Source: Candidatus Saccharimonadota bacterium
GTDB taxonomy: Bacteria; Patescibacteriota; Saccharimonadia; Saccharimonadales; Saccharimonadaceae
Reading direction: 5' to 3'
Assembly (NCBI GenBank): GCA_009777795.1
Contig: WRLC01000003.1
Location: 1 to 64,000 of the forward strand
DNA: 64,000 nucleotides
The notes below the pieces were generated by a model. That model was given only the letters and a program-made list of their open reading frames with translations, had not been told where the DNA came from and did no database searches. Below are positions 7,953-37,302 of this stretch, piece by piece (position 1 is the first letter of the stretch; each line of letters begins with the position of its first letter). The translations under genes and the position numbers were made by a program.

Positions 7953-7987
7953 CCCTGTTGGTGAAAGCGGTCTAATACAGGGTTTTT
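7953..7987 (+). terminator. Possible terminator after the AlbA-type gene
   Basis: CCCTGT (7953-7958) pairs with ACAGGG (7977-7982) across an 18-nt loop, followed by five T. A weak but correctly placed hairpin in the convergent gap 7881-8018. The rest of that gap holds only short repeats of GCAGACTT. Confidence 0.4.
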
Positions 7988-8018
7988 ACAGGTTTTGCAA
8001 GGTTTTGGGTGCTGAGAA

Positions 8019-14000: not shown

Positions 14001-15047
14001 GCAAGGATTGCCGCCAACGGTGACGAGATAAGGCAACTGAGTGATGCGGGCGTAGCCGTTGCCGGATTGGCCGGCTTGGGTGCCGCCGTTTGGAGCCGGC
14101 ATGGTACCAGTGGTGCTACCGTCTAGTGTCGCAGCGTTAAAAGCTTGGTACTGGGAGCCGAGGAGGTAGGCGCCGCCGATAGCGGTATTGCTGGGTACGT
14201 TGGACGAGGTGAAGACGAAACCGGAGCCGCCAGCGCCGTTGAGACCGGAACCGCCGCCGAACCAACCGCCGCCGCCGCCGGAGACATTGATGGCAGTAGA
14301 GAAAGGACAGTTGACAGCTGCGCCGAAGGCACCTTGACCGGCGCAACCGAGGACGTTGTTGGCGCCGCCGGAGGTTTGGGTGGCGACACCACCGGCTTGG
14401 TCGCCGGAAGTGAAGCTGGTGAGACCGCCGCCTGCACCGCCGCTGGTGCTGTTCCATTGATTACCGCTGGCGCCACCGCCACCGCCTGCAACGATAGCAC
14501 GAGCGTAAAGTGAGTTGATGCCGATGCGGATATCGGTGCCGCCACCACCGGAAGCAGTTTCGTGGCCGGTGCCGTTGTCGGTGCGGTAAGCACCGCCGCC
14601 GCCGTTAGCGCCACCCGGGTAAGGGGCGCTAGAAGTACGGGAGGCTTGGGAGCCAGCGCCGCCGACGCAAGCCCAGATGTTGGTGCCGGAAGATAAGTAA
14701 ACGGTGCCGGTCGAGTAGCCGCCGCGACCACCGGCAAAGGCTCCGGCATTACCACCGGCAGCACCCCAAGTTTCGAGCTGATAGTAGCCATTGGCTGGTA
14801 TAGTGTAGGTGGAACAGCCGGTGCTAGTGAAGTTGGTGGGCGCGCCGACTGTGTAGTCGGTGAAGCCGCTGCCAGTAATGATAATGTTTTGGCCGCCACG
14901 GCTGGGACCACGATCAGGAGTGATGTCGGTGATGTTAGTGGAGGCTAAGATAAAACCAAGGACGCCGACGAAGACGGCGAAAGAAGCGACGAAAGCGACT
15001 TTATATCGATGCCGACGTAAGAAACTAGTTTTGTGAAACCTTATCAT
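8019..15047 (-). CDS. Giant repeat-rich surface protein (2342 aa)
   Basis: Residues 1-40 are a basic stretch plus a signal/anchor helix. Then come an IPT/TIG-like motif (ITPDRGPSRGGQNIIITG), a glycine-rich domain (about 80-340, many GGG and GGWFGGGSG), and about 1900 residues of Ig-like beta repeats. The repeats alternate two motifs: GPYxGT (for example NGPYEGT, HGPYIGR, PGPYVGT) and ITFTITPNSxYxG; six or more copies at about 190-residue spacing are visible. The C-terminus has a helix (GIGAGSAAILAVLIY) and a basic tail, so both ends are membrane-associated or the N-terminus is cleaved. No LPXTG is seen. An adhesin or stalk is the best guess. It is a single gene with its own start ATG at 15047. 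Confidence 0.85.
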   Translation of the reverse strand: MIRFHKTSFLRRHRYKVAFVASFAVFVGVLGFILASTNITDITPDRGPSRGGQNIIITGSGFTDYTVGAPTNFTSTGCSTYTIPANGYYQLETWGAAGGNAGAFAGGRGGYSTGTVYLSSGTNIWACVGGAGSQASRTSSAPYPGGANGGGGAYRTDNGTGHETASGGGGTDIRIGINSLYARAIVAGGGGGASGNQWNSTSGGAGGGLTSFTSGDQAGGVATQTSGGANNVLGCAGQGAFGAAVNCPFSTAINVSGGGGGWFGGGSGLNGAGGSGFVFTSSNVPSNTAIGGAYLLGSQYQAFNAATLDGSTTGTMPAPNGGTQAGQSGNGYARITQLPYLVTVGGNPCKEVNIISDTQISCLTPAHSAGVVDVAVTIGSSTYIASAGYTYTDALVLTGPTTLSGTGAGGNYTVSLDYNYTGTVTLTDGGMGGTFSGANVVGGNQLVFTDQTSRTFTYTPPSGYSGLITLLVDSGNSYVDNATLNITITTIATTFSMQCMSEGTTGAWAANAFLDPGTPLDCRIILNGSYNGTISLADTTGETETSVLGGTFTSSDPRLSSSGVFTTTLSDTADLTGQVLAFTYTSPSWDYIIDNLYDDTEANGYYLFWPIITGTSSGSLAPAQRSVSVGLLAQSYEIYSLDNPPIDENHGCVGCSARFGLSTFNAPYFGSITLSSDLDGNFDRGSGSSTPTLEFTFNGSGIDETFRYIPAETGEHTLSGESDDPAIDDSDITFDVIDSHIALTCVPSAISRGQSSDCTLSINPSDLDPGGVVSLSDIFLSYSIPEAAGDGTFTDTSALSGTFNPSTLTYEFCGGIGGTLLDCLPGEAYDRTFTYTLPSGTDPSYSIVRIQADGANITSPTIDANWALINIIPDDILFFCSDISPDCETSRVGLTQDYILRPNGLFAGQVQISAPDDPTAEFSDDGLATWNFSGDDFDFTYTPGSTGVKTLIAEVIRVDDPNSGIKVGDTYTLTVYVMGDTITITGPDTLARDEVPLMPRFITSINGPFIGTLYGRIVRHEGSSEIQFDNSVLTGTSNFTDNGNGTFTCEVSLDNYDPITNTTTACMADSAQAEGFIFDYNWFEIHISADDATILPASKTVGLVANRYSITRDGLSATTSRASVAFGAPLTFTLTPNALFAGTYSFDDNGALGYFTPPGSIVRTQSQWPATNDQTMQAQTFTYVPQQTGYIDITVDAIRETALAPAGQASMGIQTIELLVLANSAQILGPDTLVKGSTETFTLVLNGPYEGTILLGESSTDEFYDSSKLAPNSCVLTLDDYDPITNTTSCEFTFTSEFAQYGNVITLFSSPFDATKDINILATDFTVEPGPELIDQKMNNPITFTITPNAQFDGDFNVAMVSPPIADGVHTCPDPSGFTGTFSSDQISYSYDDYLTVGQNPVSKTFTFTPTSFGRACFLITPDSSDGRTIAPQMIEVHVFDTMAIGGPDTIKKGQTSGTYTLSLRGELEGTINLSIWDLATNTEITGAEIISSDGDATCTFTSDDAIPDTEISTCTFNFTLPSSYTGNRIQIRAVDADSTSLLDPDTHNVAVVAFSFSVSPSIVYDADLDTPIEFTITPDSLYAGTFSLSDDSGSGIFDTSTVAFSTSEWPSGNTPMPGQTFYYSPERYGWQTITVTSDLGTETVDILVLADTMSLTGTSSIQIDSEMIGYYLLNIHGPYIGRVNLAILDATTNLPIAGATVNDTGTGGAYCETSAADYNTITNRTPCEFSITLPANYSSSRQIKVVATTDTGSRSLPDASATTNILANDFILSPSTTQIAVAGTTLTFTITPNSIFNGNFSISTDGPGTLSASTLAFTADDINRTFTITTTAPGVETITVSSSLGTKTVIVETMADGMSLTGTAAIQISPTMSGTYRLIIPGPYVGTINFTATDPATGSVITGATFSNSGSCTVSETDLGTTLSGATICDFTVGLPANYSGSHYLRITAAVASGDPPLTLAAPALTAITANNFSLSPDTTQTGTIGTPITFTITPNSVYNGAFNIGSTGIGGATVSVPTVSFGLSDYPTTSKDPVGKTFTFTPTTPGIRTISVSDPFTATPRLVDIITFATTLDVSGPSRIQRGATSELYTLSINGPYDGTATILAYLPTGDGTSGPAADVALSRTTCTFTIDDYDITTNTTTCTFTVSVPHDIEANHIGISAAAPGLSGDPHVAITATDFTFTADTTEGVVGTPITFTITPNGLFDGTFNLSDGGMGGIFSPTQVVFDPADWPVVTDHALPAGLTFTYTPTRAGSITITAHDIDTGTTHLPDHDLILTIAARPVDPRDEPTLPDAPDTSAIFWSSDFARAIGIGAGSAAILAVLIYNRKRLHRLIRRHRS

Positions 15048-19501: not shown

Positions 19502-19588
19502 GAGCTTTACGTGATTTTGTAGTTAAGCACAAGCGCAGTGGTGTTTGATGGCTTGATTTTGCTGGAGATGTGATATAATGTGGTCAAT

Positions 19589-19957
19589 ATGAATAGGCTT
19601 GCTCGCTTGTTGATGGTGCTGTTGGTGGCGGTGGCGGGGGTTGTCGCTGTGCCGGCGACTGTCAGCGGGAGTGGATATGATTGTGAGCAAGGGGCGATTA
19701 TCCAAGTATCCTGTGATGATGAAGGCGGTGGTATCTTTGGGGTTTTGAACTTGGTTTTGAACGTTTTGACGGTAGGCGTGGGGATTGCTGCGACGGCCGG
19801 AGTAATTTTTGCAGCGCTACGTTATACGCAGGCGCGCGACAACACAGAGAGCGCAGCGGGGGCGAAGAGGATGATTATAAATATACTTATTGGCTTGGCG
19901 GCTTGGGCAGTGTTTTGGACGCTGCTACAATGGTTGTTGCCGGGGGGTATCTTTTGA
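19589..19957 (+). CDS. VirB2-like small membrane protein 1
   Basis: A 122-aa protein: signal peptide (1-25), short Cys-containing region (CEQGAIIQVSC), then two hydrophobic helices separated by a basic loop (ALRYTQARDNTESAAGAKRM). This is the layout of VirB2/TrbC pilins. ATG 19589 follows an extended -10 box (TGATATAAT, hexamer 19574-19579) by 9 nt, so the mRNA is nearly leaderless; an in-frame GTG at 19580 would lie at the transcription start. Its TGA overlaps the ATG of the next gene. Confidence 0.7.
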   Translation: MNRLARLLMVLLVAVAGVVAVPATVSGSGYDCEQGAIIQVSCDDEGGGIFGVLNLVLNVLTVGVGIAATAGVIFAALRYTQARDNTESAAGAKRMIINILIGLAAWAVFWTLLQWLLPGGIF

Positions 19958-20742
19958 TGAGTGCTGTGCGCAGCAAGCTTGCAAAGATGCTCTTGGTATT
20001 CATGTTGATAATGACTGGAGCGATAGCGACCAACCTTACGGTCGCTAGTCAACCTACCTATGCAGCTTGCCCGAACGGGAACTTCCTTAACTTCCGTCCG
20101 TGGTGGCACGGGTTGCGCAATAACACAACTTGCGAGCTGGTCACGCCGGTGACCCGAATTGATTCAGATGGGAACGTGTCGGTAGGAACTGGTGGCAGCG
20201 GCGGGTACACTATAACGACATTTGCTTGGAGGATTGTGTTTAACTCTATGGATATATTGTTTGGTATTGTAGCTTATGCAGCAGTGTTCTTTGTTGTCTT
20301 GGGAGGATTCAATGTGCTGTTTAGTGGTGGCGACCCGGGCAAAGTGAGCAAAGGTAAGATGACAATCATGAATGCCTTGTTGGGCGTAGCGGTTGCATTG
20401 CTAGCGAGTGGCTTAGTGCGTTTCGTAAACGACACTTTGATTGGTACCGGGAATCACAATCTACGGATAGAAAATTCAACTGGCACGTTTAGGGTAGTCG
20501 ACGGATACGACGTGAACACTGACGACGTTTGGCTGGGTGCTATGGGTGCGTTTCTAATGGTGGCTGGGATTGGTGCAGTGATGATGGTGGTTTGGGGTGG
20601 TGTGAAACTATCGATGGCGTCGGGCGACCCAGCGGCAACGGCGAAGGCGAAAAATACGATTCTTTTTGCACTAATTGGCGCGATTGTGATGCTGCTGGCT
20701 AGCTTTATTGTGGGCTTTGTAGCTGACTCGGTGGGAGGATAG
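19957..20742 (+). CDS. VirB2-like protein with two pilin-like helical hairpins
   Basis: A 261-aa protein with a signal peptide (1-35, ending YAA) and two copies of a VirB2-like hairpin: helix, basic loop, helix. The loops read SGGDPGKVSKGKMTIMNA and MASGDPAATAKAKNTILFA. A Cys-containing loop (CPNGNF, TTCEL) follows the signal peptide. It looks like a tandem fusion of two units of the type found singly in the next two genes. It starts within the stop codon of the gene before (TGATG), so it is coupled to it. Probable type IV secretion or pseudopilus component; exact role unknown. Confidence 0.7.
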   Translation: MSAVRSKLAKMLLVFMLIMTGAIATNLTVASQPTYAACPNGNFLNFRPWWHGLRNNTTCELVTPVTRIDSDGNVSVGTGGSGGYTITTFAWRIVFNSMDILFGIVAYAAVFFVVLGGFNVLFSGGDPGKVSKGKMTIMNALLGVAVALLASGLVRFVNDTLIGTGNHNLRIENSTGTFRVVDGYDVNTDDVWLGAMGAFLMVAGIGAVMMVVWGGVKLSMASGDPAATAKAKNTILFALIGAIVMLLASFIVGFVADSVGG

Positions 20743-20748
20743 GAAGAG

Positions 20749-21192
20749 ATGACAAAACAAATGAGGCAAAAAATGTTTCACGGGGTACGGTTGACGTTGG
20801 CTGGGATTTTTGCGGTGCTGGCAATCTTGGGTGTGGCGTTAGCGAGTAATATTTTGACGACAGATGACGCGGCGGCTAAGCCAGCGATATGCGGGACGGC
20901 GGCGACTAGCGGCATGACTTCAGCTGAACTAGCAGCGTTAGGCTGCGGCAATGAGGCTGGTGAGGACATAGTTAACTCGCGGGCAACGAACATCTTACGG
21001 ACGTTGGTTTGGTTTGGCTGTGCGGTGGCGTTGACCTTTGTGATAGTGGGCGGCATCAAACTGGCGACCAGCGAAGGCGATCAGGCGAAGGTGGCGAAGG
21101 CGCGGAACACAATTGTCTTTGCGGCGATTGGGTTAGTGATTGCGCTACTAGCGACATTCATCGTGGACGAAGTCGTGGCTTTATTCATGTAA
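20749..21192 (+). CDS. VirB2-like small membrane protein 3
   Basis: A 147-aa protein: signal peptide (about 1-45), Cys-containing stretch (CGTAAT, LGCGNEAGED), then helix-loop-helix with loop SEGDQAKVAKARNTIVFA. It lies 6 nt after the preceding gene with a purine-rich ribosome site (AGGAAGAG), so it belongs to the same operon. The loop motif is shared with the flanking VirB2-like genes. Confidence 0.7.
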   Translation: MTKQMRQKMFHGVRLTLAGIFAVLAILGVALASNILTTDDAAAKPAICGTAATSGMTSAELAALGCGNEAGEDIVNSRATNILRTLVWFGCAVALTFVIVGGIKLATSEGDQAKVAKARNTIVFAAIGLVIALLATFIVDEVVALFM

Positions 21193-21197
21193 AGCCC

Positions 21198-21226
21198 TTG
21201 ACAGCTAAACGCGGTACTGCTATAAT
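21198..21226 (+). promoter_or_regulatory. Strong promoter of the fourth VirB2-like gene
   Basis: TTGACA (21198-21203), 17-nt spacer, TATAAT (21221-21226): full consensus. With the Shine-Dalgarno AAGGAG at 21242-21247 and the strong terminator after the gene, it suggests high expression of this one protein. Confidence 0.9.
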
Positions 21227-21252
21227 TGGCTTAAAGAATACAAGGAGAAAAA

Positions 21253-21561
21253 ATGTTTAAATTTCTTGCAGCACCTACTTGGACTACGCCGGGTACAGGG
21301 GCTTCTACTAGCTTAACTGACGCGAACTCGGTCGTGGCGCTGGTAGTGCAAACTTTGATTTTTGTGGCCTGTGCAGTGGCCTTTGTGTTTGTGATTGTCG
21401 GTGGTATCAAGTACATCACAAGCGGTGGCGACGAGAAGAAGGTCGCAAGTGCAAAGAATACGATTCTTTACGCAATCATCGGTTTGGTTGCTGCGCTCTT
21501 GGCTGGCGTGATTCTTAACGTCGTGCTAAGTGCAATCGGCATCAACACATTCACGTTCTAA
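21253..21561 (+). CDS. VirB2-like small membrane protein 4, probable major pilin-like subunit
   Basis: A 102-aa protein without a typical signal peptide: a short polar start (FLAAPTWTTPGTGAS), then helix-loop-helix with loop SGGDEKKVASAKNTILYA. It is the smallest of the four related proteins. It alone has a consensus promoter, a perfect ribosome site and a strong terminator, as expected for the abundant structural subunit of a type IV secretion-like pilus. That role is inferred. Confidence 0.72.
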   Translation: MFKFLAAPTWTTPGTGASTSLTDANSVVALVVQTLIFVACAVAFVFVIVGGIKYITSGGDEKKVASAKNTILYAIIGLVAALLAGVILNVVLSAIGINTFTF

Positions 21562-25297: not shown

Positions 25298-25373
25298 GGT
25301 CTGGTAGCTCAACTGGAAGAGCAGATCCGTCCTAAGGATAAGGTTGTAGGTTCGAGTCCTATCCAGACTACCA
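25298..25373 (+). tRNA. tRNA-Arg (anticodon CCU)
   Basis: 76 nt with encoded CCA. Acceptor GGTCTGG pairs with CCAGACT (G1:U72 wobble), D arm GCTC-GAGC, anticodon loop GTCCTAA with CCT, T arm GTAGG TTCGAGT CCTAT. It reads AGG codons. Position 32 is G, which is unusual. Confidence 0.88.
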
Positions 25374-25441: not shown

Positions 25442-28400
25442 ATGGCAAGGAATATTCCGGATAAAGGCTATGGTGGGATTTATGGGGCGGAGGCTGCGGG
25501 TAAAAATCCGGAAAATGTGAAAGGTGCGGGGTCGGCGGCCGAGGCGGCGGACCATTTTGCGGCGGCGGAAAAGTCGGCCAGCAAGGCGGCGCCAAAGATT
25601 AGCGATAAAACGACAAGCAGCAGTGCTGATGTGGCGGAGAATTATGCGCCGAAATATACATCGCTCGGGGTCCTGTCGCCCGACAATACCTCAAGCTCGG
25701 AAAAACTGACGAAAAAGGTGAGTGGGAGCGGGCGGAGTAAGAAGCCGCTGATTGCGGCGGGCGGGTTGACGGGTTTGATTGCGGTGTTGATGTTGACGGT
25801 TTCAAGTATGTTGCCGATTCACCTGATTGAGAATATGATTGATATGCGTAATTCGTTTGGCACGACGGCGGAGATGCGGGGGACGCGGTTGATTACGCGG
25901 GCGGTGGGGAAGCATAACACGACGGCGATAACGAACTTTTCGCGGCGGAATACAATGTCGGCGGGGCGGATTGCTCAGATGAACCGAGGGTTGGCGCCGG
26001 AGGGACTACGGTTGCAGCTGGATAGCGGCGGGCAAAATGTGGTGTTGCAGTCGGCGTTGGACCCGGGAACGAATCGAATTAATTTGGATGCGGGCGGCAA
26101 TATGGAATTTCGGACGGTGGCGATGAATGAGGTGGAGTTTGCGGGGCTGATTAATGACCATCCGAATATTCGCAACGGCTTTAATAAGGGTGCGCGGACG
26201 ATGACGGGGCGGACGGCGGGGTGGTATAACCGGGCGATGGCGTTTTTCTTGAACAAGAATGCGCTGACGCGGAATTTGTTTAAGGATTTTATCGGGAGAG
26301 CGGAGGGTAATGCCAATTTTCGGGATGCGCAGGCGCGGCTAGCGACCGCGGAAGCGAGAGTGGCGAAAAATAATATTGACTTGGCGACGCAAGAGCGGAT
26401 GACGAATGCGGAGACGGGCGAGGTGTCGGACGTAGTAAACCAAAATCAGTCGGGGCGAAATTTGGACACGGCGAAGGTGGCGATTGGAGCGGACATTCGG
26501 GCGCGGGCGCTGCAAATTGCCGGGCGAGCGGGCGGAATCGGGGCGGCAATGTCGGCGAGTTGCGCGGTGTTTTTGGCGGTGGGGGCGGCGTCGGCGGTGT
26601 TTGCGGCGATTGAAATGTCGAAGGCCTTACATGTGGTGGCGGGCTGGTTTGAGGCGGGGCAGAAAACGATGGCGGGTGAGGGAGATGACAGCTATCATGC
26701 GTTTGGCGAGGCATTGACGGAGGCGACGGTGACGACGGCGTTTGATGAAAACGGCAATGAAATTGAGCTGCACGGCGGGGCGAAAAAGAGCGCGACGGAA
26801 TCGGCGGGGTTGACGCAGGTCTTGATTGGTGGGACATTTTCGGCAGAGGACGACCAAAGCGCGATGAAATATCATGCGGAAAAAGCGGTGGGGTACTTGG
26901 GCTTGACGGGCGGAACGGTGGCGGGGTGTTTTGCGGCGATGATTGCGGGGGGAATTTTGGGGGCGGTGAGTGAAGTGTTTGCGATTGTGGTTTCGTTCAT
27001 CCCGATTGCCGGACAGGCGTTTGCGGTGAGCCGGATTGTGGCGCGGACGGCGGGCAATTTGGCCTTGCAGGCGGGGATTGCGGCGGCGTTGGGCGTGGCG
27101 ATTGGAGCGATTGTGCCGATGTTGGCGAAAAGTTTTGTGACGACGATTGCGACGGACGTGGGGGGCGAGGACTTTGGTAATATGATTGGCAGTGTGGGCG
27201 GGCGATATATGTCGGGTACGCATCAGGCGAATGGTGGCGTGGTGGCGACAGAGGAGCGGGCGTTGGCATTTTACCGCGAGACGCAGGCGGTTTTGGCACG
27301 ACAGGCGGAGTTGGAGCGGTTGGAGCGGAGTCCGTTTGATATGACGAATCGGAATACGTTTTTGGGCAGTTTGGCTTACCGGATGTCGGGTTTTGCGGCG
27401 AGCAGCGGGTCGCTTTTGAGCAACTTTACGGGTTTGGCGAGTGCGGCGCAGACGTCGAGGTTGCCGTGGCAGTTTAATGCTAGCGCGAGTCAGGCGCTGG
27501 CGTTTAAGGAAAGTCTGGGGAATTGCCCGCAGTTGTCGTCGCTCTATCCGGAGGGGATGAGCGCGACGGATGACGGGCGGTTGCATACGGTGGCGTGTGA
27601 TATTTTTGGTAATCCGATGCGGAGCAATGATTTGAATACGATGGAGTTTGACCCGGAATATATTTATTGGAAGACGGCGTTTACGTGTGATGAGGACGGC
27701 GAGTGTTCGTTTGGCAAGCAGGGTGGAGCGACGCAGACCTACACGGGGACGCATTTGGATGGGACGACGTGGTCGGTGACGGGTGCGGCGTCGATTGAGC
27801 TGGATGATAACGGGATGGAGAAAATTAATCCGAAGAGCGATTTGGGCAAAATGGTGGTTTATGGAGTGAACCGGTCGACTGACCCGGGAGTGTTGGACGT
27901 GAATATTATGATGGCGGAAAATAATGTGGGGCCGAGCTGGTTGGGTTGGGTGCCGGCGGTGGGGAGTATCCAGCAGGTAATCTCAACGGTGAATCAGAAT
28001 GAGGCTTTGCAAAGTGGTTGGGTGGACGGGAAGAATTATTGCAATGGCTGTACGCCGGAATGGGATACGAAATACCGGTATTTAAGCCAATATATTGTGG
28101 ACACGAATTTGTATGAGGGGATGGGGTCGATTGAGCGCAGTCCGGTGGTGGCGTTTTTGGAGGAGGAGGTTTGGCCGACCTTGGATCGTAGTTTTGAGGG
28201 GGTGTTGGCGCGAAATATGGGGGTGCCGAAGGAGTTTGTGGCCGACACGTTGGCGTTTACGTTTGATTTGTTGGAGACGCAATATGCTTACTTAGCGGCT
28301 TGGCCAGCAGCCTCCCAATCCTCGGCAGACATTTTCAGTCCTACGCTCCAAATCTGTTCAAAATCGCGAGCCTCTTCCTATCGGGGTTCTCACGATTTTT

Positions 28401-28519
28401 CACAGACTTGTTCACTCGGTGGAAATGTATTGCCTCGGATTGGGGAGTTTGCTGGCCACGTTCTTGGGTCTACTGGAACAGATTTGCGGCGACGGTTTAA
28501 TGCGGAGGCCACGGCATGA
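25442..28519 (+). CDS. Cassette 1 gene A: large membrane-anchored protein (1025 aa), novel family
   Basis: Starts MARNIPDKGYGGIYG. A polar Ala/Ser-rich tail (1-100) is followed by one TM helix (about 102-126, ending LPIH), a large region, and hydrophobic segments near 363-390, 485-528 and 540-562. Conserved with the paralogue at 31279-34410: the N-terminal motif, GWFEAGQK, GDDSYHAFGE, EDFGNxxGS, SPFDxTNxNTFLG, YTGTHxDGxTWSV and the end RRRFNAEA. Residues 954-1006 are encoded by a palindromic element absent from the paralogue. No known domain recognised. The mRNA is nearly leaderless. It overlaps the next gene by ATGA, so it is made with a secreted hydrolase and a PEGA protein. A surface or secretion role is inferred. 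Confidence 0.8.
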   Translation: MARNIPDKGYGGIYGAEAAGKNPENVKGAGSAAEAADHFAAAEKSASKAAPKISDKTTSSSADVAENYAPKYTSLGVLSPDNTSSSEKLTKKVSGSGRSKKPLIAAGGLTGLIAVLMLTVSSMLPIHLIENMIDMRNSFGTTAEMRGTRLITRAVGKHNTTAITNFSRRNTMSAGRIAQMNRGLAPEGLRLQLDSGGQNVVLQSALDPGTNRINLDAGGNMEFRTVAMNEVEFAGLINDHPNIRNGFNKGARTMTGRTAGWYNRAMAFFLNKNALTRNLFKDFIGRAEGNANFRDAQARLATAEARVAKNNIDLATQERMTNAETGEVSDVVNQNQSGRNLDTAKVAIGADIRARALQIAGRAGGIGAAMSASCAVFLAVGAASAVFAAIEMSKALHVVAGWFEAGQKTMAGEGDDSYHAFGEALTEATVTTAFDENGNEIELHGGAKKSATESAGLTQVLIGGTFSAEDDQSAMKYHAEKAVGYLGLTGGTVAGCFAAMIAGGILGAVSEVFAIVVSFIPIAGQAFAVSRIVARTAGNLALQAGIAAALGVAIGAIVPMLAKSFVTTIATDVGGEDFGNMIGSVGGRYMSGTHQANGGVVATEERALAFYRETQAVLARQAELERLERSPFDMTNRNTFLGSLAYRMSGFAASSGSLLSNFTGLASAAQTSRLPWQFNASASQALAFKESLGNCPQLSSLYPEGMSATDDGRLHTVACDIFGNPMRSNDLNTMEFDPEYIYWKTAFTCDEDGECSFGKQGGATQTYTGTHLDGTTWSVTGAASIELDDNGMEKINPKSDLGKMVVYGVNRSTDPGVLDVNIMMAENNVGPSWLGWVPAVGSIQQVISTVNQNEALQSGWVDGKNYCNGCTPEWDTKYRYLSQYIVDTNLYEGMGSIERSPVVAFLEEEVWPTLDRSFEGVLARNMGVPKEFVADTLAFTFDLLETQYAYLAAWPAASQSSADIFSPTLQICSKSRASSYRGSHDFSQTCSLGGNVLPRIGEFAGHVLGSTGTDLRRRFNAEATA
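28301..28458 (+). repeat. 158-bp imperfect palindromic element, translated in frame
   Basis: Outer arms TGGCCAGCA (28301-28309) and TGCTGGCCA (28450-28458). Reading both arms inward: CTCCCAATCC against CTCCCCAATCC, ACATTTTCA against ACATTTCCA, ATCTGTTCAAAATCGCGAG against GTCTGTGAAAAATCGTGAG; the loop is about 18 nt near 28372-28389. The + strand here is C-rich, unlike the G-rich gene around it. It supplies 53 codons with no stop. Resembles a MITE or a Rickettsia-type palindromic element. Confidence 0.8.
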
Positions 28520-29796
28520 ACAAGGTGAAGCGATGGTTGGTTGTGGTGGGGGGGTTGGTTTTGGCGTTGTCGCCGACGATGGTGATGGCGAATCGGGATG
28601 AGTTGTTTTGGGCGGAGACGGGGATTCTGTTTTATGATCCGGATGATATGGCGATTGCGTGCGCGAGCATGGCGATGGGACAGGCGACGGGCAGTAGCAC
28701 AGCGGGGTTGAGCGCGCAGCAGGCAGCGTTTGTCGATCAATATCAGGGGATTGCGTCGGCGCTGAGTGTGCAGTATGGGATTCCTTGGGAGGCGGTGATG
28801 GCGCAGGGGATTTTGGAGAGCGCGGCGGGGATGAGTAGTTTTGCGCGGAACCGGAATAACTTTTTTGGGATTGGGGCGGTTGATAGCAACCCGAACAATG
28901 CGCATTATTTTGAGACGCCGGAGGCGGGCTGGGAGGGGTACTATCGATTTATTCGGGATAATCCGCGGTATCGCAATCATGGGGTGTTTCGCGAGCCGAC
29001 GATAACGGACCCGTATGCGTACGTGGCGGCGGTGAAGGCGGCGGGGTATGCGACGGATCCGCTGTATGTTGATAAGTTGGCGCCGATTATTACGGCGATT
29101 GTGGCGCGGGCGGGGGAGCAGGGTTGGCAGACGTCGGCGGAGTTGGCGGCGGCGAATCCGGAGATGTTGACGGCGGCGGAGCAGAATGCGGCGGGGGCGA
29201 ATGAGGGGTCGGACGTTTCGAATTTCTTGACTTATTGCTCGGGGGTGAATTTGACGGGGAATTATGCGCAGGATTTGCATAATACGATTATGGCGTTTTC
29301 GTGGGATGGAATTCGGAGCCAACCGGCAAATAATCCGAAGCCGGAATATTATAGCGCGCTGTCGGGGATGGGCTTCTTTGGCAATCAGGATGCGTATGTG
29401 AAGGCGGGGGCGTCGTGTGATGCGTTTGTGGCAACCGTGATGCGGGCGAGCGGGGCGGATACGGATTTTCCGTGCTGCGGGACGAGCAACCAGCTGAATT
29501 ATTTGGCGAACAACCCGCTTTATACGGAGGTGCCGAATTTGGGTAATGTGTCGAATTTGCAGGATGGTGATATATTTGTATTGAATGGGCATATTATGAT
29601 ATTTATCAATGAAAATGGGCAGCCGAAGGTGGCGCATGCGAGCCGGGATACGGGGACGACGTGCCGAAGTTATAGTGGGATGCTAACGACGACGGCGGGG
29701 GGGCGGATTTCGTCGTGCGCGCGGACGGGCGAGCGAGGGACGGTTTATTTTAGCGATAGCCGGGGGAGTTATCGGATTTTTAGGAGGAATGGGTGA
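28516..29796 (+). CDS. Cassette 1 gene B: secreted peptidoglycan hydrolase (glucosaminidase + papain-like domain)
   Basis: A 426-aa protein. Signal peptide 1-26 (ending MVMA), then the motif FYDPDD. Residues about 75-200 match the glucosaminidase family (FlgJ/LytG type): PWEAVMAQGILESAAG with the likely catalytic Glu, then NNFFGIGAV and the YSR-like blocks. Residues about 255-400 look like an NlpC/P60 or CHAP-type cysteine peptidase: candidate nucleophile Cys301 (SCDAFVATVMR), a CC pair (FPCCGTS) and candidate His358 (NGHIMIF). It should cut glycan and peptide bonds of cell walls. Starts within the end of gene A (ATGA) and ends within the start of gene C. Targets could be self or host wall; undetermined. 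Confidence 0.82.
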   Translation: MNKVKRWLVVVGGLVLALSPTMVMANRDELFWAETGILFYDPDDMAIACASMAMGQATGSSTAGLSAQQAAFVDQYQGIASALSVQYGIPWEAVMAQGILESAAGMSSFARNRNNFFGIGAVDSNPNNAHYFETPEAGWEGYYRFIRDNPRYRNHGVFREPTITDPYAYVAAVKAAGYATDPLYVDKLAPIITAIVARAGEQGWQTSAELAAANPEMLTAAEQNAAGANEGSDVSNFLTYCSGVNLTGNYAQDLHNTIMAFSWDGIRSQPANNPKPEYYSALSGMGFFGNQDAYVKAGASCDAFVATVMRASGADTDFPCCGTSNQLNYLANNPLYTEVPNLGNVSNLQDGDIFVLNGHIMIFINENGQPKVAHASRDTGTTCRSYSGMLTTTAGGRISSCARTGERGTVYFSDSRGSYRIFRRNG

Positions 29797-30413
29797 GCAA
29801 GTGGGTTTATGTGTTGGGGGGTGTGGCGGCGGCGGTTTTGTTGGGGCTGGGGATTTATCGGGCGATTTGGTCGGCGACGTTGACGTTGGTGGTGGCGCCG
29901 TATGATGCGGTGATTTATGTGGATGGGGCGGCGGCGGTGAATGGGGCGACAAAGCGGGTGCGGCCGGGCGAGTATGTGGTGGCGGTGAGGCGAGAAGGGT
30001 TTGATGATGAGGAGCATAAGGTGGAAGTGCGGCGGGGCGATGAGGCGCGGGTGATGGTGGCGTTGTTGCCGTCGGACGGGGATTATTCGTGGTATATGGA
30101 GAATGCGGAGGATGGGTTGATTTTGGACTCGGTGATGAGCGCGCGGTCGACCGAGCGGGAGGAGCAGCTGACGGAGCGGTGGCCGGTGTTGAATGCTTTG
30201 CCGCAGCGGACGAATTTCTATGAGTTGACGTTGTTTGCGTTGCCGAGTTCGGAAAATCCGCGGATGGTGCTGATGTTGACAATTTATGAGATTCCGCGGG
30301 ATGGGATTTTGGCGACGCCAGAGAAGTTTGCGGAATATTCGGCGGCGGCGCGGGGGTGGCTTTTGGAACAGGGGTTGGAAGAGGGTGAGTTTGAGATAAT
30401 TTCGGGGAATTAG
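29793..30413 (+). CDS. Cassette 1 gene C: membrane-anchored PEGA-domain protein
   Basis: A 206-aa protein with an N-terminal TM anchor (about 5-25) and a PEGA domain (about 30-90: YDAVIYVDGAAA, RPGEYVVAVRREGF). PEGA is a small surface beta domain. The remaining 115 residues are unassigned, beginning with LLPSDGDYSWY, a motif shared with the paralogue at 35645. It overlaps gene B by 4 nt. It may tether or position the hydrolase outside the membrane (inference). Very strong G bias on the coding strand. Confidence 0.8.
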   Translation: MSKWVYVLGGVAAAVLLGLGIYRAIWSATLTLVVAPYDAVIYVDGAAAVNGATKRVRPGEYVVAVRREGFDDEEHKVEVRRGDEARVMVALLPSDGDYSWYMENAEDGLILDSVMSARSTEREEQLTERWPVLNALPQRTNFYELTLFALPSSENPRMVLMLTIYEIPRDGILATPEKFAEYSAAARGWLLEQGLEEGEFEIISGN

Positions 30414-30432
30414 CGGCTGCAGGGGTCGGGCA

Positions 30433-30461
30433 TTGACTTTTAGCCATAAGTGTGATATAAT
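30433..30461 (+). promoter_or_regulatory. Promoter of the lipoprotein gene
   Basis: TTGACT (30433-30438), 17-nt spacer, TATAAT (30456-30461). The leader of about 80 nt contains TGGTGC-GAGA-GCGCCA, a 6-bp hairpin with GNRA tetraloop, and the near-repeat GGTATCCTACGGGGTACGGG. No known riboswitch recognised. Confidence 0.75.
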
Positions 30462-30545
30462 GGGGAGGGTATCCTACGGGGTACGGGTAGAATGTTTCCC
30501 TAAAACAATGGTGCGAGAGCGCCAAAATACTTTGAAAAGGAGAGA

Positions 30546-31184
30546 ATGATGATGAAAAAGATGACTTGTTTACTGATGCTTGCTCTCGCAATCTTTTGTT
30601 TGGCGGGATGCACGAGGAGTACTTCGGCGATGCCGGAGAGAGAACAGCCGGTGGTTTCGGCGCAGAATGATGTAGCTGGGAGAGATGATAGCACATCAAG
30701 CACCGGCGAGCCAACTGAGCCAGCAGCCCCTGAAGGGGATTCATGGCTGGATGAGTTAACTGAGGCAGTAGCGCTTGGCGAGTATCCGAACTGGGATGAG
30801 TGGGTCACGGAAGACCAGTTTAACCGTGTGCTTGCAGCAAAAGGAAGCCACTTTGAGCCGCAAGGGGACTACACTTGGGATAATGGGATAGGTCTTACGG
30901 TTGCGGTGGAAACATCGCTTGCCCGTGGTCTTGGATCGGATGACCGTTGGCACATAGTGCCTTACTATGCCGGAGGGTTCGCTCACACGCCAAGCCCCGG
31001 CTTCACATCCCAAGTTTGGCGGGATGAGCGCTGGATAAGCAGATATGTGGTTGACGAGCGAGGCATGTCGCAGCGGTTGGCCGAGGACTTATGGACTCTA
31101 CTATTGTACAGCGATTCGTTAGAAACGTTGGCTGATAACATTCTGTCTATCGACGGGATGAAAGAAGAGCTAGCTAATAAGTAA
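30546..31184 (+). CDS. Lipoprotein of unknown function between the two cassettes
   Basis: A 212-aa protein with a lipoprotein signal: basic start, hydrophobic core, lipobox LAGC with the lipidated Cys near residue 21. A Ser/Thr/Pro-rich linker follows (to about 65), then a folded part (DEWVTEDQFNRVLAAKGSHFEPQ onward) with no family recognised. Three ATG codons in a row (30546, 30549, 30552); AGGAG spacing favours the second or third. It has its own promoter and does not share the extreme G bias of cassette 1, so it may have a different history. Confidence 0.8.
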   Translation: MMMKKMTCLLMLALAIFCLAGCTRSTSAMPEREQPVVSAQNDVAGRDDSTSSTGEPTEPAAPEGDSWLDELTEAVALGEYPNWDEWVTEDQFNRVLAAKGSHFEPQGDYTWDNGIGLTVAVETSLARGLGSDDRWHIVPYYAGGFAHTPSPGFTSQVWRDERWISRYVVDERGMSQRLAEDLWTLLLYSDSLETLADNILSIDGMKEELANK

Positions 31185-31216
31185 TCAGCATCAATCTAGA
31201 CTCTTATTTTATTTTT

Positions 31217-31242
31217 AGCCCCTTGGCGTACGCTAGGGGGCT
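31217..31242 (+). other. Hairpin before cassette 2
   Basis: AGCCCC (31217-31222) pairs with GGGGCT (31237-31242), with GCGTACGC at the tip. No U-run follows on the + strand, so termination is doubtful; it abuts the -35 box of cassette 2. Confidence 0.45.
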
Positions 31243-31270
31243 TGAAAGTGGTTATGATATATGACATAAT
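31242..31270 (+). promoter_or_regulatory. Promoter of cassette 2
   Basis: TTGAAA (31242-31247), 17-nt spacer, CATAAT (31265-31270), 8 nt before ATG 31279; the mRNA is probably leaderless. Confidence 0.65.
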
Positions 31271-31278
31271 TATTGTAA

Positions 31279-34200
31279 ATGGCGAGGACGATACCGAAAA
31301 CCGGTTATGGAGGTATTTACGGCGAGGAGGACGTGCGGAACAAGCGCGCGGGTAATGCGGCGGACGATTTTGCCAGTGCGGAGAAAAATGCCAGCGGAGG
31401 CGCGCCAAAAAATAATGAGCAGACGACGAGCAGCAGTACGGACGTAGCGGAGAATGGAGCGGCAGGTCAAGGGCCGAAATACAGTGGCGACGGAGCGGGC
31501 GCTGGGAAAGCGGGTGGCAAAGCTGGGGGCGTTGCGGGAGCGGCGGCAAAAGCGACACCGATGGGCAGATTTATGGGCGGGATGAAGAACGCGTTTAAGA
31601 GTGGCGATGATGGGGACAGAAAGCCGCTGTTTGCGATTGGCGGGCTAACGGGTATTGTGGGGGTTATTATGATGTTGGTGTCGAGTACGCTACCGATACA
31701 TATGATAAGCAATTTTGGCGATTTGAGGAATACGATGTTCGGGCAAAATAGTGAGCGGACGAACGTGCTGATACGCAGGATGACGAGAGGTGAGGTTGAT
31801 AGCAACTTGTTTAGCAAACGTTCGACGATGGGCAACCGTAGGTTGGCACAGATGAACCGCGGGTTGAATGACACTGGGTTTCGTTTTGAATTTGATAGCG
31901 GCTCGAAGCACTATGTGATGTTAAGAGCGGAAGTTGATCCTAGCACGGGGACAATAAAACGGACCTCAAGCGGTCAGGTGGATTTCACGGGTGCGCAAAG
32001 GATAAATAGTGAGGTGGAGTTGAAGGCTATGTTCGATGGCGATAAGGCTTTCCGGACGGCATGGAATGATGGCACGAAAACGATGACTGGAAAGAATAGC
32101 GGTTGGTTTAATAGGGCGATGGCCTATATGCTTAGAGGTAATAGGCTGACGCGGAATTTGTTTAAGGGCTTTATCGCTAGGGAAGATGCGAGAGCAGCGC
32201 TGAGGGCAATGCAGGGGCGGTTAAGCAACTCGGAGAAAATCCAGACTAACGGGTCATTGACGGACGCAACTCGGACGGTCACGGAAGGCACCGACTCAAA
32301 CGGCAATCCAACTACTACCGACACAACTACCTCACCGCAGGCAAGACAAAAAAGATTTCAAGACCTGAATGCTAAGATTACAAGCGATATACGAGTCAAA
32401 GCGATGCAGTTGGTGACGGGGGTAGCGGCGGCTTATTGTGGGGTGAAATTGGCGATAGCGGCGGTTTCGGCGGTATATGCGATGGATGCGGCAATGCGCG
32501 GATTAGCTGTGGTGGCGGGTTATTTTGAGGCTGGGCAGAAACCATTGGCTGGTGATGGAGATGACAGCTATCATGCTTTTGGCGAGATGCTAAATACGGC
32601 AACTGAAACTACTATTGTCGACGAAAACGGCAACAGAGAAGTATTGAATGATGGCGTGAAAATGAGCCCGACAGAGGCGCGCGGGATGCAGGCAATTTTG
32701 GTAGGCGGGCTTTCGGCCGGAGACGTGGTGGATGACCCGAGTGTGGCAAAATATAGCATGGAACAGGCAATGAAACATGTCTCGACATCAGCAAATGAGG
32801 TGCGGAACTGTTCGCGTGCGATGATGATAGCAGGAGGCGTGCAGATAGGTATCTTCGCAGCGCAAGTGATTGTAGGTATCTTCACTCTGGGTATTGGGGC
32901 CGGCCTAATCGAGATTGGTAAGATAGCGGCACAACAGGCAGGTAGCGCGCTGGTGATGTCAATCTTGGCGGGCGCAGCGATAAAGAAACTGGTGCCGATT
33001 ATTGCGATGACGGCGATCACGGCGATTGCGACTGAAGTTTGGGGAGAAGATTTTGGTAATTTGGTAGGTAGCTTTGGCTCGCGATATTTCAGCAAGGGGC
33101 ACCAAGGTAATGGCGGACCGGCTACGGGCTATGACAATGCGTTGGCGTTTTATGTTGAGCAGCAGAGGGTGCTGGCCTATGCGGCGGAGTTAGACCGAGC
33201 GACAAAAAGCCCGTTTGACATCACGAACCAGAACACATTCCTTGGCAAGATCTCGAGCAACCTAGCGATTGCTAGCGCCGGTAGGTCGAAGTCGATATTA
33301 GGACAGATGAATACATTAGGAGCTTTGACAGGCTCGATGCGGCTACCAGTGAACATGAGCTCAGCGGCGACTTATGAAATTGCCTTCCGCGATACGATTA
33401 ATTGGTCGAGCGATGGGAATGGTTGTTCGAGGCTAGAGATGATTGGCGCGGTGGGGGATATGTTCTGCAACCCAATTCGTAGTAATGATCTGACTACGAG
33501 CGTGGACGATCCGGAATTCGTGTTTTATAAAACAGCGGCGTCTTGCCGGGGGAGCAGCAACGGCTCGCCATGCTCATTTGGTGTGCGCGCAACAAGTGGC
33601 TCGACCAATTCGGAAACTGGCCACTATCCGGGCAAGACTTACACTGGGACGCATCCAGATGGCAGGACATGGTCAGTAACGGTGAATGCGACAATTGAGA
33701 CAGGTAGTGATGGCTTGGAAAAAATAAATTACGACTCAGATCTAGGTAAAATGATAAAGTATGGCGTTGATAGAAAAACCGACCCGGGAATCACCGACGC
33801 AAATATCGTACAGGAAGAGGCAAATCTGACGACTGGTCTAAATGCTCTGGACACTGTACTGAATGCAATCCCTGTTGTCGGTGATTTCATGCAGATTGCT
33901 CAGGGAGCGCGCCAAAACTTGGCGTTGGAGGCAGGCTGGGTAAATGGTGAGGCGTTTTGCGCCGGGTGTGAGCATGATAACGATGCGGTGCGGGCGAAAT
34001 GGTCCACAGACTATCGATACTTAAACCAATATATAGTTGACACTAACGCATATGAGAATGTTGGGGCGATAGATAGCAACCCAGTGGTGGCGTTTATGGA
34101 GGAATATATTTGGCCGTTTGAGGATAGGAGCTATGCGGGAATCTTGGCGGCGAATATGGGCATGCCGAAAGAATGGGTTGTGGCGACGCTGGCTTTTGCG

Positions 34201-34410
34201 GAAGACTTGCGAGATTCGCCGAGCGAGGTTGATGATTTGATTGCGAGTGCGCCAAATATTTATATGACTTACTACCACGGGATTGATTTAGAGCAGTTGA
34301 CCGTGCCAGAAGACGATGGCCCATATAGTGTCTTAGCAAACATGCAACAGTCGACGCAGACGGCTGGCGTGGAGTGGCGCCGACGGTTTAACGCCGAGGC
34401 GGTAGCATGA
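31279..34410 (+). CDS. Cassette 2 gene A: paralogue of the 25442 gene (1043 aa)
   Basis: Starts MARTIPKTGYGGIYG. Same layout as the cassette 1 protein: polar tail, TM near 118-140 (GGLTGIVGVIMM...LPIH), large middle part with hydrophobic helices (about 380-405, 515-560), and the shared motifs GYFEAGQK, GDDSYHAFGE, EDFGNLVGS and RRRFNAEA. It lacks the palindromic insert; its C-terminal 65 residues are normal coding sequence (ESP-type acidic linker, GPYSVLANMQQ). Codon use is less G-biased than in cassette 1. It overlaps the next gene by ATGA. Function unknown; co-expression with a hydrolase suggests an envelope-spanning carrier or scaffold. Confidence 0.8.
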   Translation: MARTIPKTGYGGIYGEEDVRNKRAGNAADDFASAEKNASGGAPKNNEQTTSSSTDVAENGAAGQGPKYSGDGAGAGKAGGKAGGVAGAAAKATPMGRFMGGMKNAFKSGDDGDRKPLFAIGGLTGIVGVIMMLVSSTLPIHMISNFGDLRNTMFGQNSERTNVLIRRMTRGEVDSNLFSKRSTMGNRRLAQMNRGLNDTGFRFEFDSGSKHYVMLRAEVDPSTGTIKRTSSGQVDFTGAQRINSEVELKAMFDGDKAFRTAWNDGTKTMTGKNSGWFNRAMAYMLRGNRLTRNLFKGFIAREDARAALRAMQGRLSNSEKIQTNGSLTDATRTVTEGTDSNGNPTTTDTTTSPQARQKRFQDLNAKITSDIRVKAMQLVTGVAAAYCGVKLAIAAVSAVYAMDAAMRGLAVVAGYFEAGQKPLAGDGDDSYHAFGEMLNTATETTIVDENGNREVLNDGVKMSPTEARGMQAILVGGLSAGDVVDDPSVAKYSMEQAMKHVSTSANEVRNCSRAMMIAGGVQIGIFAAQVIVGIFTLGIGAGLIEIGKIAAQQAGSALVMSILAGAAIKKLVPIIAMTAITAIATEVWGEDFGNLVGSFGSRYFSKGHQGNGGPATGYDNALAFYVEQQRVLAYAAELDRATKSPFDITNQNTFLGKISSNLAIASAGRSKSILGQMNTLGALTGSMRLPVNMSSAATYEIAFRDTINWSSDGNGCSRLEMIGAVGDMFCNPIRSNDLTTSVDDPEFVFYKTAASCRGSSNGSPCSFGVRATSGSTNSETGHYPGKTYTGTHPDGRTWSVTVNATIETGSDGLEKINYDSDLGKMIKYGVDRKTDPGITDANIVQEEANLTTGLNALDTVLNAIPVVGDFMQIAQGARQNLALEAGWVNGEAFCAGCEHDNDAVRAKWSTDYRYLNQYIVDTNAYENVGAIDSNPVVAFMEEYIWPFEDRSYAGILAANMGMPKEWVVATLAFAEDLRDSPSEVDDLIASAPNIYMTYYHGIDLEQLTVPEDDGPYSVLANMQQSTQTAGVEWRRRFNAEAVA

Positions 34411-35648
34411 GAACGCTAGCCATAAGACGATGGCGGATTGTGTCCGCGGCTTTGGTGCTGGCTTTGTCGCCGCAAGCGGTCCTAGCTAGGAACGCTGCGC
34501 AAGAGGAAAAGTTCGCGGAATATGACATTATGTTTTATGACCCAGACGATAACGCTGGTTGTGGTACCAGCTCGTTTGTGGCGGCTTCTCCGGTATCCGG
34601 TTCTGCATATGAACGGTTAAAAGACGCGGTGCGGCAATATGGTGAATTCGCAATGGAGATGCAACGGACCTATGGCACGCCGTGGGAGGTGGTCTTCGCG
34701 CAGATGCAAATGGAGTCTGGCACTGGAACTGCTGGGCATGCGATTAACGGGGCGCATAATAACTGGCTTGGAATCACAGGCACAGGGGATGCTGGGTCTT
34801 GGACTTCGCCGGGTGGTCGTAACTGGGCGGTTTATAGTAGCATAGAGGCAAGCATCGCGGATTGGGCTGGGCCGCGGGTGCTGAGAAACGGCATGTACAA
34901 CGCCGCGTTTCAATATCTAGATCCGAATAGCTATAGTCTGGGAAGCTTCTTGCAGGCGATGATTGCGGTCTATGCGCCAAGCTCGGATGGCAATAATGTG
35001 GAAGTATATGTGGCGAATGTGCTAAGCTTTATCAACGGACCAATTCGCGAAGTGCGAGAGGAAATGGGCTGGCCCAGCTCGGCGGAATTGGCCGAGCAAG
35101 AGAACATCCCAATTGGCGGGCAGAATCCGCTGGGCGGGACGGTAGACCCGACCCAAGCTGCCGGTACTTGTTTCATGGGTGGCAACGGCGATATCACCGA
35201 AGCAGCGATTGCCTTTTCGTGGGAGGGAATGAGAAGCCAGCCGAAAAATAACCCGACGCCGGCATACCGAGAAGCTATGGAAGCTGTCGGGTTAGCTGGT
35301 GTGAGCTGCAATGGTGGGCCGTCGGGTGCAAGCTGTGATGTTTTTGTGGCGACGGTAATGAGGGCAACTGTGGACCCGAACTTTCCGTGTTGTGGGACAA
35401 GCAACCAGCTAGCTAATTTGGCCGTCAACCCGTTGTACGAGGAGATTCCGAATTTGGGCAATACTTCAAACTTGCAGTCGGGGGATATCTTTGTCTTGAA
35501 CGGGCATATTATGATGTTTATTATTGACAACGGAACGCCGAAGATGGCGCATGCGTCTTGCAACGACCGGACGGGTGAGCGGGGTGGAGTGTTCTTTAGC
35601 GACAGCCGTGGGGCTTACCGGATCTTTCGATATATAGGAGGTGCGTGA
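34407..35648 (+). CDS. Cassette 2 gene B: secreted peptidoglycan hydrolase paralogue
   Basis: A 413-aa protein. Signal peptide about 1-28 (ALVLALSPQAVLA), FYDPDD motif, glucosaminidase domain (about 75-215: PWEVVFAQMQMESGTG, NNWLGITGTGD), and the C-terminal papain-like domain with SCDVFVATVMRA, FPCCGTS and NGHIMMF. Motif order matches the cassette 1 protein throughout, and the C-terminal ERGGVFFSDSRGAYRIFR mirrors its ERGTVYFSDSRGSYRIFR. Starts in the stop of gene A and overlaps gene C. The two copies differ most in the glucosaminidase part, so they could differ in substrate (inference). Confidence 0.82.
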   Translation: MRTLAIRRWRIVSAALVLALSPQAVLARNAAQEEKFAEYDIMFYDPDDNAGCGTSSFVAASPVSGSAYERLKDAVRQYGEFAMEMQRTYGTPWEVVFAQMQMESGTGTAGHAINGAHNNWLGITGTGDAGSWTSPGGRNWAVYSSIEASIADWAGPRVLRNGMYNAAFQYLDPNSYSLGSFLQAMIAVYAPSSDGNNVEVYVANVLSFINGPIREVREEMGWPSSAELAEQENIPIGGQNPLGGTVDPTQAAGTCFMGGNGDITEAAIAFSWEGMRSQPKNNPTPAYREAMEAVGLAGVSCNGGPSGASCDVFVATVMRATVDPNFPCCGTSNQLANLAVNPLYEEIPNLGNTSNLQSGDIFVLNGHIMMFIIDNGTPKMAHASCNDRTGERGGVFFSDSRGAYRIFRYIGGA

Positions 35649-36283
35649 TGCAAGAAGAACGCGAGCAACAACAGAGGACTACTTTGATTCTCGGGATTAT
35701 AGTGGGAGCGGTGGTGGTCGGCGCGGTTATTTGGTACATATTATATAATGTGCGGTATTCGGCACGCTTGGAGTTGCATATTGCGCCGAACAACGCGCTG
35801 ATTTACTTGAATGATAAAGAAATTAGGAATCGGAACCAGCAGATTAGGCCGGGGGAGCATGTGATACGGGTTGAGCGGGAGGGCTTTGAGACCCAAGAAG
35901 AAGAGTTTAGTGTGGCGGGCGGCGAGACGTTTAATGTTTCGATAGCGTTATTGCCAAGCGATGGGAACTTAGACTGGTATAATAACAACCCAAGGGATGC
36001 GCTGATTCTGGATGGTGTGCGGCAGCGTGAGCAGGACAGAATAGTGCAAGATGCGTTGAATTCGGACCCGATTTTTGGGATTTTGCCGTTTACGGAGGAT
36101 GAGTTTGGGCTGAAATATGTGATTGAGGCGGCTTATAGTAATGGGGTGAGGTTGTTGATTCGGTTGAATACTTGCTCGGATATGGTGGCGGAATATTATA
36201 AAGAGCAAGCTTTTGAATGGCTGCGCTCGCAAGGATTTGAGCCGAATAATTATCATATTGATTACATGACGCTTTGCGGCTAG
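35645..36283 (+). CDS. Cassette 2 gene C: membrane-anchored PEGA-domain protein paralogue
   Basis: A 212-aa protein with a short acidic cytoplasmic start, TM helix (about 12-34), PEGA domain (about 40-95: NNALIYLNDKEI, RPGEHVIRVEREGF), and the shared LLPSDGNLDWY motif. The C-terminal part contains two Cys (NTCSD and the terminal TLCG) that the cassette 1 copy lacks. It ends tail-to-tail with recF, sharing 4 nt (36280-36283). Confidence 0.8.
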   Translation: MMQEEREQQQRTTLILGIIVGAVVVGAVIWYILYNVRYSARLELHIAPNNALIYLNDKEIRNRNQQIRPGEHVIRVEREGFETQEEEFSVAGGETFNVSIALLPSDGNLDWYNNNPRDALILDGVRQREQDRIVQDALNSDPIFGILPFTEDEFGLKYVIEAAYSNGVRLLIRLNTCSDMVAEYYKEQAFEWLRSQGFEPNNYHIDYMTLCG

Positions 36284-37302
36284 GTGAGGGTGATGAGGGG
36301 TTTGAGGTTGGGGGGCGGGGCGACGGCGGTGATGATGATTTGGTGGGAGGAGAAGTTTTTCATGAGGGCGGTTTGGCGGGGGCGGTCGAGTTCGGAGAAG
36401 ACGTCGTCGAGGAGGATAAGTGGGGCGAGGTTTTTGGAGTCGGCGAGGGCGGCGGCTTCGATGAATTTTTGGGCGATGATGATGGTGCGGTTTTCGCCGC
36501 GGGAGGCGGTGCCGTCGGCGAGCTTGCCGTTGAAGGCGTAGAGGAAGTCGTCGCGGTGGGGGCCGAAAGTGGTGGCGCCGACGGCGATATCGCGGGCGAA
36601 ATTGGTTTCGAGGGCTTGGAGATAGGTTTGTTCGTCGATGACGCGGCCGGAATATTTGAGCTGGACCTCGGCTGGCGCGTCGGAGATTTGGTTGTAGACG
36701 TCGGTGAGACGTTGGTTGATTTGGCTGGCGCCGTAGGCACGGCCGACGAGGATTTCGCTGCCGTATTGGGCGAGGATGACGTCCCAAGCGTAGAGGTTTT
36801 CGCGGGTGGCGTAGCCGGATTTGAGGAGTTTGTTGCGTTGGGAGAGGGCTTTTTTGTAGCGGCTGCTGGCGCGTTGGAAGCTGGGGTTTAATTGGCTAAA
36901 AAAACGGTCGAAATAATCGCGGCGGGAGGTAGGGGAGCGGTGGATGAGGTTTAAGTCGTCGGGCTCAAAAAGAACAACTGGGTAGCGATGTTCGGTTTTT
37001 AGTCTTTTTGATTTTTCGCCATTTATTTTAAAGGTCTTCCCTGTGGAATCGATGATTACTCTTGGAGTAAGACCGTCGGTTTTTGTTAGTTCGGCGAAAG
37101 AGTTCGGTTTTGTGGTTTGGATGATTTCGCGGTCGGTCGATTTGAAGCTGGTGCCGTGGAGGAGAAGGTAGAGGGCTTCTAGAATGGAGGTTTTGCCGGT
37201 GCCGTTTTTGCCGACGATGAGGGTGGTGGTGGGGGAAAAGTCCATGGCGAAGGCGTCGTGGGAGCGGAAGTTTTTGAGGCGGATAGAACTGACGATTTGC
37301 AT
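36280..37302 (-). CDS. recF: DNA replication and repair protein RecF
   Basis: A 340-aa SMC-like ATPase that loads recombination proteins at gaps. Walker A GKNGTGKT (residues 31-38), Walker B LAPLILLDDVFSELD near the C-terminus, and an ABC-signature-like SRGENRTIIIAQ before it. It starts 12 nt after the dnaN stop, in the usual dnaA-dnaN-recF order. Its end overlaps the convergent PEGA gene by 4 nt. Confidence 0.95.
   Translation of the reverse strand: MQIVSSIRLKNFRSHDAFAMDFSPTTTLIVGKNGTGKTSILEALYLLLHGTSFKSTDREIIQTTKPNSFAELTKTDGLTPRVIIDSTGKTFKINGEKSKRLKTEHRYPVVLFEPDDLNLIHRSPTSRRDYFDRFFSQLNPSFQRASSRYKKALSQRNKLLKSGYATRENLYAWDVILAQYGSEILVGRAYGASQINQRLTDVYNQISDAPAEVQLKYSGRVIDEQTYLQALETNFARDIAVGATTFGPHRDDFLYAFNGKLADGTASRGENRTIIIAQKFIEAAALADSKNLAPLILLDDVFSELDRPRQTALMKNFSSHQIIITAVAPPPNLKPLITLT

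Follow-up and report, generated by a model that had tools for sequence, protein, structure and literature searches.

The tandem gene cassettes found in the 64,000-nucleotide stretch of DNA analysed here (the window) probably encode the distal module, facing the wall, of the chromosomal type IV secretion system (T4SS) of Saccharibacteria, as judged from gene order and domain content. This reading is based on the position of the three cassette genes (A, B and C) downstream of VirB4 in relatives, on detached cassettes still being found at recF, on T4SS pilin genes and a VirB6-like gene in the window, and on M23 or CHAP domains carried by some A homologues. It also agrees with the published T4SS, which is dnaA-proximal and essential, with an essential peptidase and lysozyme after virB4 (PMC12102498, PMC10633639). 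The original prediction described an apparently undescribed cassette; the observation itself is real and coherent, but it is mostly explained by a known system, as the cassette corresponds to the end of the published Saccharibacterial T4SS locus (PMC12102498, PMC10633639). Epibiotic growth requires the T4SS in the one Saccharibacterium tested, and the wall-crossing part of this machine is poorly defined. To this, the locus adds A as a conserved unnamed component and B as a hydrolase whose domains are swapped between close relatives.

Organization of the two cassettes

The A-B-C cassettes lie head-to-tail at 25442-30413 and 31279-36283, separated by a lipoprotein gene that was absent from the original prediction:

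25442..28519, forward strand: gene A1, 1025 aa, large membrane protein of the probable T4SS distal module, family unnamed
28516..29796, forward strand: gene B1, 426 aa, VirB1/PrgK-like wall hydrolase with Glucosaminidase (PF01832) and NlpC/P60-like domains
29793..30413, forward strand: gene C1, 206 aa, membrane-anchored PEGA protein
30546..31184, forward strand: lipoprotein gene between the cassettes
31279..34410, forward strand: gene A2, 1043 aa, paralogue of A1
34407..35648, forward strand: gene B2, 413 aa, paralogue of B1
35645..36283, forward strand: gene C2, 212 aa, paralogue of C1

The ORF coordinates confirm the predicted head-to-tail arrangement, with a 4-nt overlap at all four gene junctions within the two cassettes. 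The copies are collinear, and their amino-acid identity is 41% for A, 40% for B and 32% for C. Copy 1 is, as had been noticed, more G-biased than copy 2, with third-position GC skews of 0.62, 0.71 and 0.90 for A1, B1 and C1 versus 0.32, 0.24 and 0.56 for A2, B2 and C2, and the gap is mostly confined to third codon positions. Downstream of the cassettes follow the convergent recF, dnaN and dnaA genes, the 3' end of C2 overlapping that of recF (36280-37302, reverse strand). On the other side, a tRNA-Arg(CCT) gene (25298-25373, forward strand) ends 68 nt upstream of A1 and marks a possible integration or rearrangement point.

Both A proteins start with MARxIPxxGYGGIYG and end with RRRFNAEA, and the description of A as a membrane protein of about 1000 aa from no recognised family still stands. 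A had no match in Pfam, NCBIfam or PHROG, and the A profile found none among PDB sequences. The N-terminus is disordered and followed by one membrane helix near residue 117 and more helices between ~350 and 610. The predicted topology comprises a cytoplasmic N-terminus, ~4-5 membrane helices and a Cys-containing C-terminal ectodomain, in which conserved cysteines accompany the motif AExDRxxRSPFDxTSxNTFLGS. A fold search against PDB and BFVD with the A2 model, whose full-length pLDDT is only 61, gave no credible match, nor did the C-terminal domain (model pLDDT 80) match there, which does not by itself prove a novel fold. Among 21 A homologues, four end in an M23 domain and one in a CHAP domain; M23 was not detected in A1 or A2.

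Gene B encodes a glucosaminidase joined to a papain-like domain, as proposed. The Glucosaminidase domain (PF01832) is recognised in the two copies with E-values of 4e-23 and 8e-9, while the second half holds an invariant Cys and Gly-His and its profile matches MepS/Spr NlpC/P60 structures (E 0.0015). The hydrophobic N-terminus, a signal or an anchor, makes the proposed secretion reasonable but falls short of proof. The assignment of C as an anchored PEGA protein likewise holds, the PEGA domain matching with E-values of 5.7e-5 and 6e-7 in the two copies, and none of the papers searched was found to describe PEGA in Saccharibacteria. A lipoprotein gene occupies the equivalent place in two further genomes of the genus (G003 and G002), although its similarity to the window's copy is marginal and the sequences are poorly conserved. 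Upstream of both the lipoprotein gene (30433-30461) and A2 (31242-31270, ending 8 nt ahead of the ATG) are promoter-like sites, and the second cassette may therefore be transcribed separately; the sites match at 10-11/12, and the scan yields no more of them than shuffled sequence does.

Relation to the Saccharibacterial T4SS locus

Relatives were found by searching with A2, after which the gene neighbourhoods of the matches were examined. The common family order is VirB6-PrgI(VirB3)-TrsD-like-VirB4-A-B-C, all in one direction, followed by convergent recF-dnaN-dnaA. The order from VirB6 to recF and dnaN is found in loci L038, L040, L064, L082 and L083, and close variants of it occur in L036, L042-L047, L077, L078 and L085. 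L064 lies on the only named contig found in a scan with A2, CAMNUC010000012.1 of an uncultured Candidatus Saccharibacteria, and shows exactly this order. Pfam backs the PrgI and VirB4 assignments in relatives, while the TrsD-like gene is identified from its position and from PMC12102498; in nearly all linked loci, this VirB4 N-terminal-like part is a separate gene before VirB4. A survey of 195 genomes of the class found VirB4 in 183 and A in 118, the latter nearly all of one family. Among the matches listed, A follows VirB4 in the same orientation at a distance of at most 600 nt in 49 of 95 genomes and lies within 12 kb of it in 6 more. The 40 genomes without linkage among these matches comprise 37 of genus g2, 2 of the window's genus and 1 whose VirB4 is not among the matches listed. 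The A family is a conserved yet unnamed component of the T4SS locus, directly following VirB4 in nearly all genera other than g2 and that of the window.

In the window's own genome (G000), contig 1 carries the single VirB4 and the single PrgI, which flank a TrsD-like gene, and no A-B-C is found there:

Contig 1, 7265-9067: VirB4, 75% identical to the VirB4 of locus L047, P-loop_TraG 3e-28
Locus L060, 9067-10065, reverse strand: TrsD-like gene (VirB4 N-terminal homologue)
Contig 1, 10046-10678: PrgI (VirB3), PrgI PF12666 1.2e-12

This VirB4 belongs to the Patescibacterial clade and has PrgI/VirB3 near it, as in the MPF-FATA-like T4SS of Patescibacteria. A T2SSE/PilB-type ATPase gene (L060, 5582-7255, reverse strand) directly adjoins the three genes (7265-10678, reverse strand), a possible link between T4SS and type IV pilus genes. 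Further T4SS components are found in the window itself and elsewhere in the genome:

16119..19532, reverse strand: probable VirB6, polytopic, homologous to the gene that precedes PrgI in relatives
19580-19957, 19903-20742, 20749-21192 and 21253-21561, forward strand: four tandem T4SS_pilin genes (PF18895, VirB2-like)
Locus L032, 10365-13124 and 14156-17377, reverse strand: two further VirB6-like paralogues, close together elsewhere on contig 3

The four PF18895 genes at 19580-21561 form a VirB2-like pilin array of the kind known from the Patescibacterial T4SS, with the first gene just below the curated cut-off. Members of the VirB6-like family have 6-8 hydrophobic segments, and a weak TrbL match (PF04610, best E 0.0073) is seen in 2 of 12 members, not including that of the window. 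Against one VirB4, three VirB6-like genes are present in G000 and apparently three in G003, a 97% complete relative in the same genus. G003 is laid out like G000, having a single VirB4 and both cassettes at recF. In neither genome is A-B-C linked to VirB4, which lies on another contig in G000 and ~48 kb away in G003. A relaxase (PF03432) was not matched in four genomes of the genus, and PF10412 hits were present but unlinked to the A-B-C or T4SS loci. In this genus, the motor genes (PrgI, TrsD-like and VirB4) have thus parted from A-B-C, which remained at its recF site and underwent duplication, a separation that makes A-B-C hard to recognise as T4SS here.

The T4SS of Patescibacteria is described as having MPF-FATA ancestry, with TrsD, PrgI and pilin arrays and a location near dnaA; in S. 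epibionticum, no VirB8 is reported, and the genes directly following virB4, for a peptidase and a lysozyme, are essential (PMC12102498). The cluster as a whole (SEML1_0006-0019 in S. epibionticum) is also essential, with coupling and relaxase proteins unrecognised (PMC10633639). The genes described here share with this system PrgI, a TrsD-like protein, VirB4, a VirB6-like protein and a VirB2-like pilin array, as well as hydrolases downstream of virB4, the site beside dnaA-dnaN-recF and the lack of a recognised relaxase (PMC12102498, PMC10633639). We infer that the S. epibionticum peptidase corresponds to an A of M23 type and its lysozyme to a B of phage-lysozyme type. Unlike in that system, A-B-C in the window is duplicated and separated from PrgI-TrsD-VirB4, B combines a glucosaminidase with NlpC/P60 instead of a phage-type lysozyme, and A is without M23. 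The TM7 operon that combines VirB4 and VirB6 with the M23 endopeptidase MepM offers a similar comparison, as it shares a conserved VirB4, a clade-specific membrane component and a hydrolase within the operon, but in the window's genus the operon is split and M23 was not detected in A1 or A2 (PMC7739484). What is new here is the duplication of A-B-C within this genus and its detachment from VirB4, with VirB6, A, B and C multiplied around one motor.

Duplication and hydrolase exchange

The original prediction allowed that the more G-biased copy might differ in age or origin, of which a different origin is not supported by the A tree. Here, win_A1 groups with G003_A1 and G002_A1, then with G001_A, whereas win_A2 groups with G003_A2, and all six genus sequences form one supported clade. 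Of the genus's four genomes, three have an A1 type and two an A2 type, both types occurring in G000 and G003. Import of copy 1 from elsewhere was rejected given this distribution and the finding that copy 1 of G003 is again more G-biased at third positions for A and C, with a weaker gap. As the copies diverged before the species of the genus split, the difference in G-bias is no sign of recent import. The tree therefore places the duplication at the base of the genus or close to it, with G001, which has a single cassette, reaching that state afterwards. Other duplications involve this end of the locus, namely an independent tandem pair in G014 and the patterns A-B-C-B-C, A-B-B-C-C and A-B-C-B among L077, L078 and L080; the latter variety points to an end prone to duplication.

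B proteins across relatives share an N-terminal (I/V)LFYDPD-like motif (around ILFYDPD) despite swapped hydrolase domains. Elsewhere, the catalytic domains are Phage_lysozyme2 with NlpC/P60, GDSL or C39, compared with Glucosaminidase and NlpC/P60 in the window, and a swap to Phage_lysozyme2 and a C39-like peptidase is found inside the window's own genus (G001; L035 4946-6865, reverse strand). The constant motif with varying catalytic domains is consistent with a hydrolase that is dedicated to the T4SS and pressed to vary its substrate. Such swapping offers a way to test how these parasites cope with the walls of different hosts.

Proposed roles and competing readings

By domains and synteny, B resembles VirB1/PrgK-like proteins, that is, exported multidomain peptidoglycan hydrolases encoded together with a T4SS. 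PrgK of pCF10 and TraG of pIP501 are VirB1-like hydrolases of two or three domains (PMC12857230) and, like B, combine glycan-cleaving and papain-like domains near VirB4. B differs from them in its GH73-type glycan-cleaving domain, its single short N-terminal anchor and a scaffold supplied by the separate protein A. In the proposed mechanism, A would serve as a membrane scaffold whose large ectodomain reaches from the machine's membrane part into the wall, and C, as an anchored PEGA protein, may hold or position B. Once exported, B would open peptidoglycan by cutting both its glycans and its peptides, in the manner of PrgK or TraG in Gram-positive conjugation, and thereby let the channel or VirB2-like pili cross the cell's own wall and possibly that of the host. 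The duplicate cassette would then provide two alternative distal ends for one VirB4. Synteny supports the original proposal that the three products make up a single complex, at the surface or for secretion, that displays a hydrolase.

It is quite conceivable, if somewhat short of an even chance, that the two ends are specialised, with copies 1 and 2 equipping one motor for own versus host wall or for two host types. Both copies are intact and ~40% identical, both A types persist in G000 and G003, the hydrolase domains of B swap within the genus (Phage_lysozyme2 and C39 in G001), and three VirB6 copies face one VirB4 in G000; against this, G001 manages with one cassette. A slightly more tentative suggestion is that A takes the place of VirB8, or else is an overgrown scaffold of PrgK type from which, in this genus, the hydrolase domain has passed to B. 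A occupies the slot just after VirB4, which is that of prgK and prgL in pCF10. In addition, an M23 or CHAP domain is present at the C-terminus of some A proteins, and no VirB8 is reported in S. epibionticum (PMC12102498). In fold searches, which are weak for such a model, A2 showed neither an NTF2-like nor a hydrolase fold, a point against this suggestion. The more elaborate picture of one VirB4 with two interchangeable ends and several VirB6 variants, switchable per wall or host, and with A as a new VirB8-replacing scaffold family, is unlikely as a whole. The duplicated, detached distal end and the unnamed A family are the parts worth following.

Several observations count against assigning A-B-C to the T4SS, as neither sequence nor fold match links A to any known T4SS subunit, A-B-C is unlinked to VirB4 in the window's genome, and the conservation of A-B-C seen elsewhere breaks down in the large genus g2. 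There, A is retained at recF without B and C (L049, L070 and L072), with a second A, likewise solitary, at another site (L037, L069, L071, L073 and L074). This partly bears out the refuting condition of the original prediction, by which A homologues would mostly stand without B and C. An independent surface complex presenting a hydrolase to the host wall, with no tie to the T4SS, would account for A not being adjacent to VirB4 in these two genera, but is improbable, as nearly all other genera have A directly behind VirB4, in what looks like the ancestral order, and the cassettes that have separated are still found at the same recF site. That A is an extended VirB6 is most improbable and was rejected, since, despite its ~1000 aa, several membrane helices and large hydrophilic domains reminiscent of extended VirB6 proteins (PMC12857230), its profile comparison with the VirB6-like family of these genomes gave an hhalign probability of 1%, PF04610 (TrbL/VirB6) had no hit among 21 A members, and the slot upstream of PrgI is filled by that other polytopic family with its weak TrbL/VirB6 match. 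Elsewhere in the window, a gene at 8019-15047 (reverse strand) encodes a 2342-aa surface-type protein with glycine-rich ALK_LTK_GRD and TIG domains, a possible adhesin.
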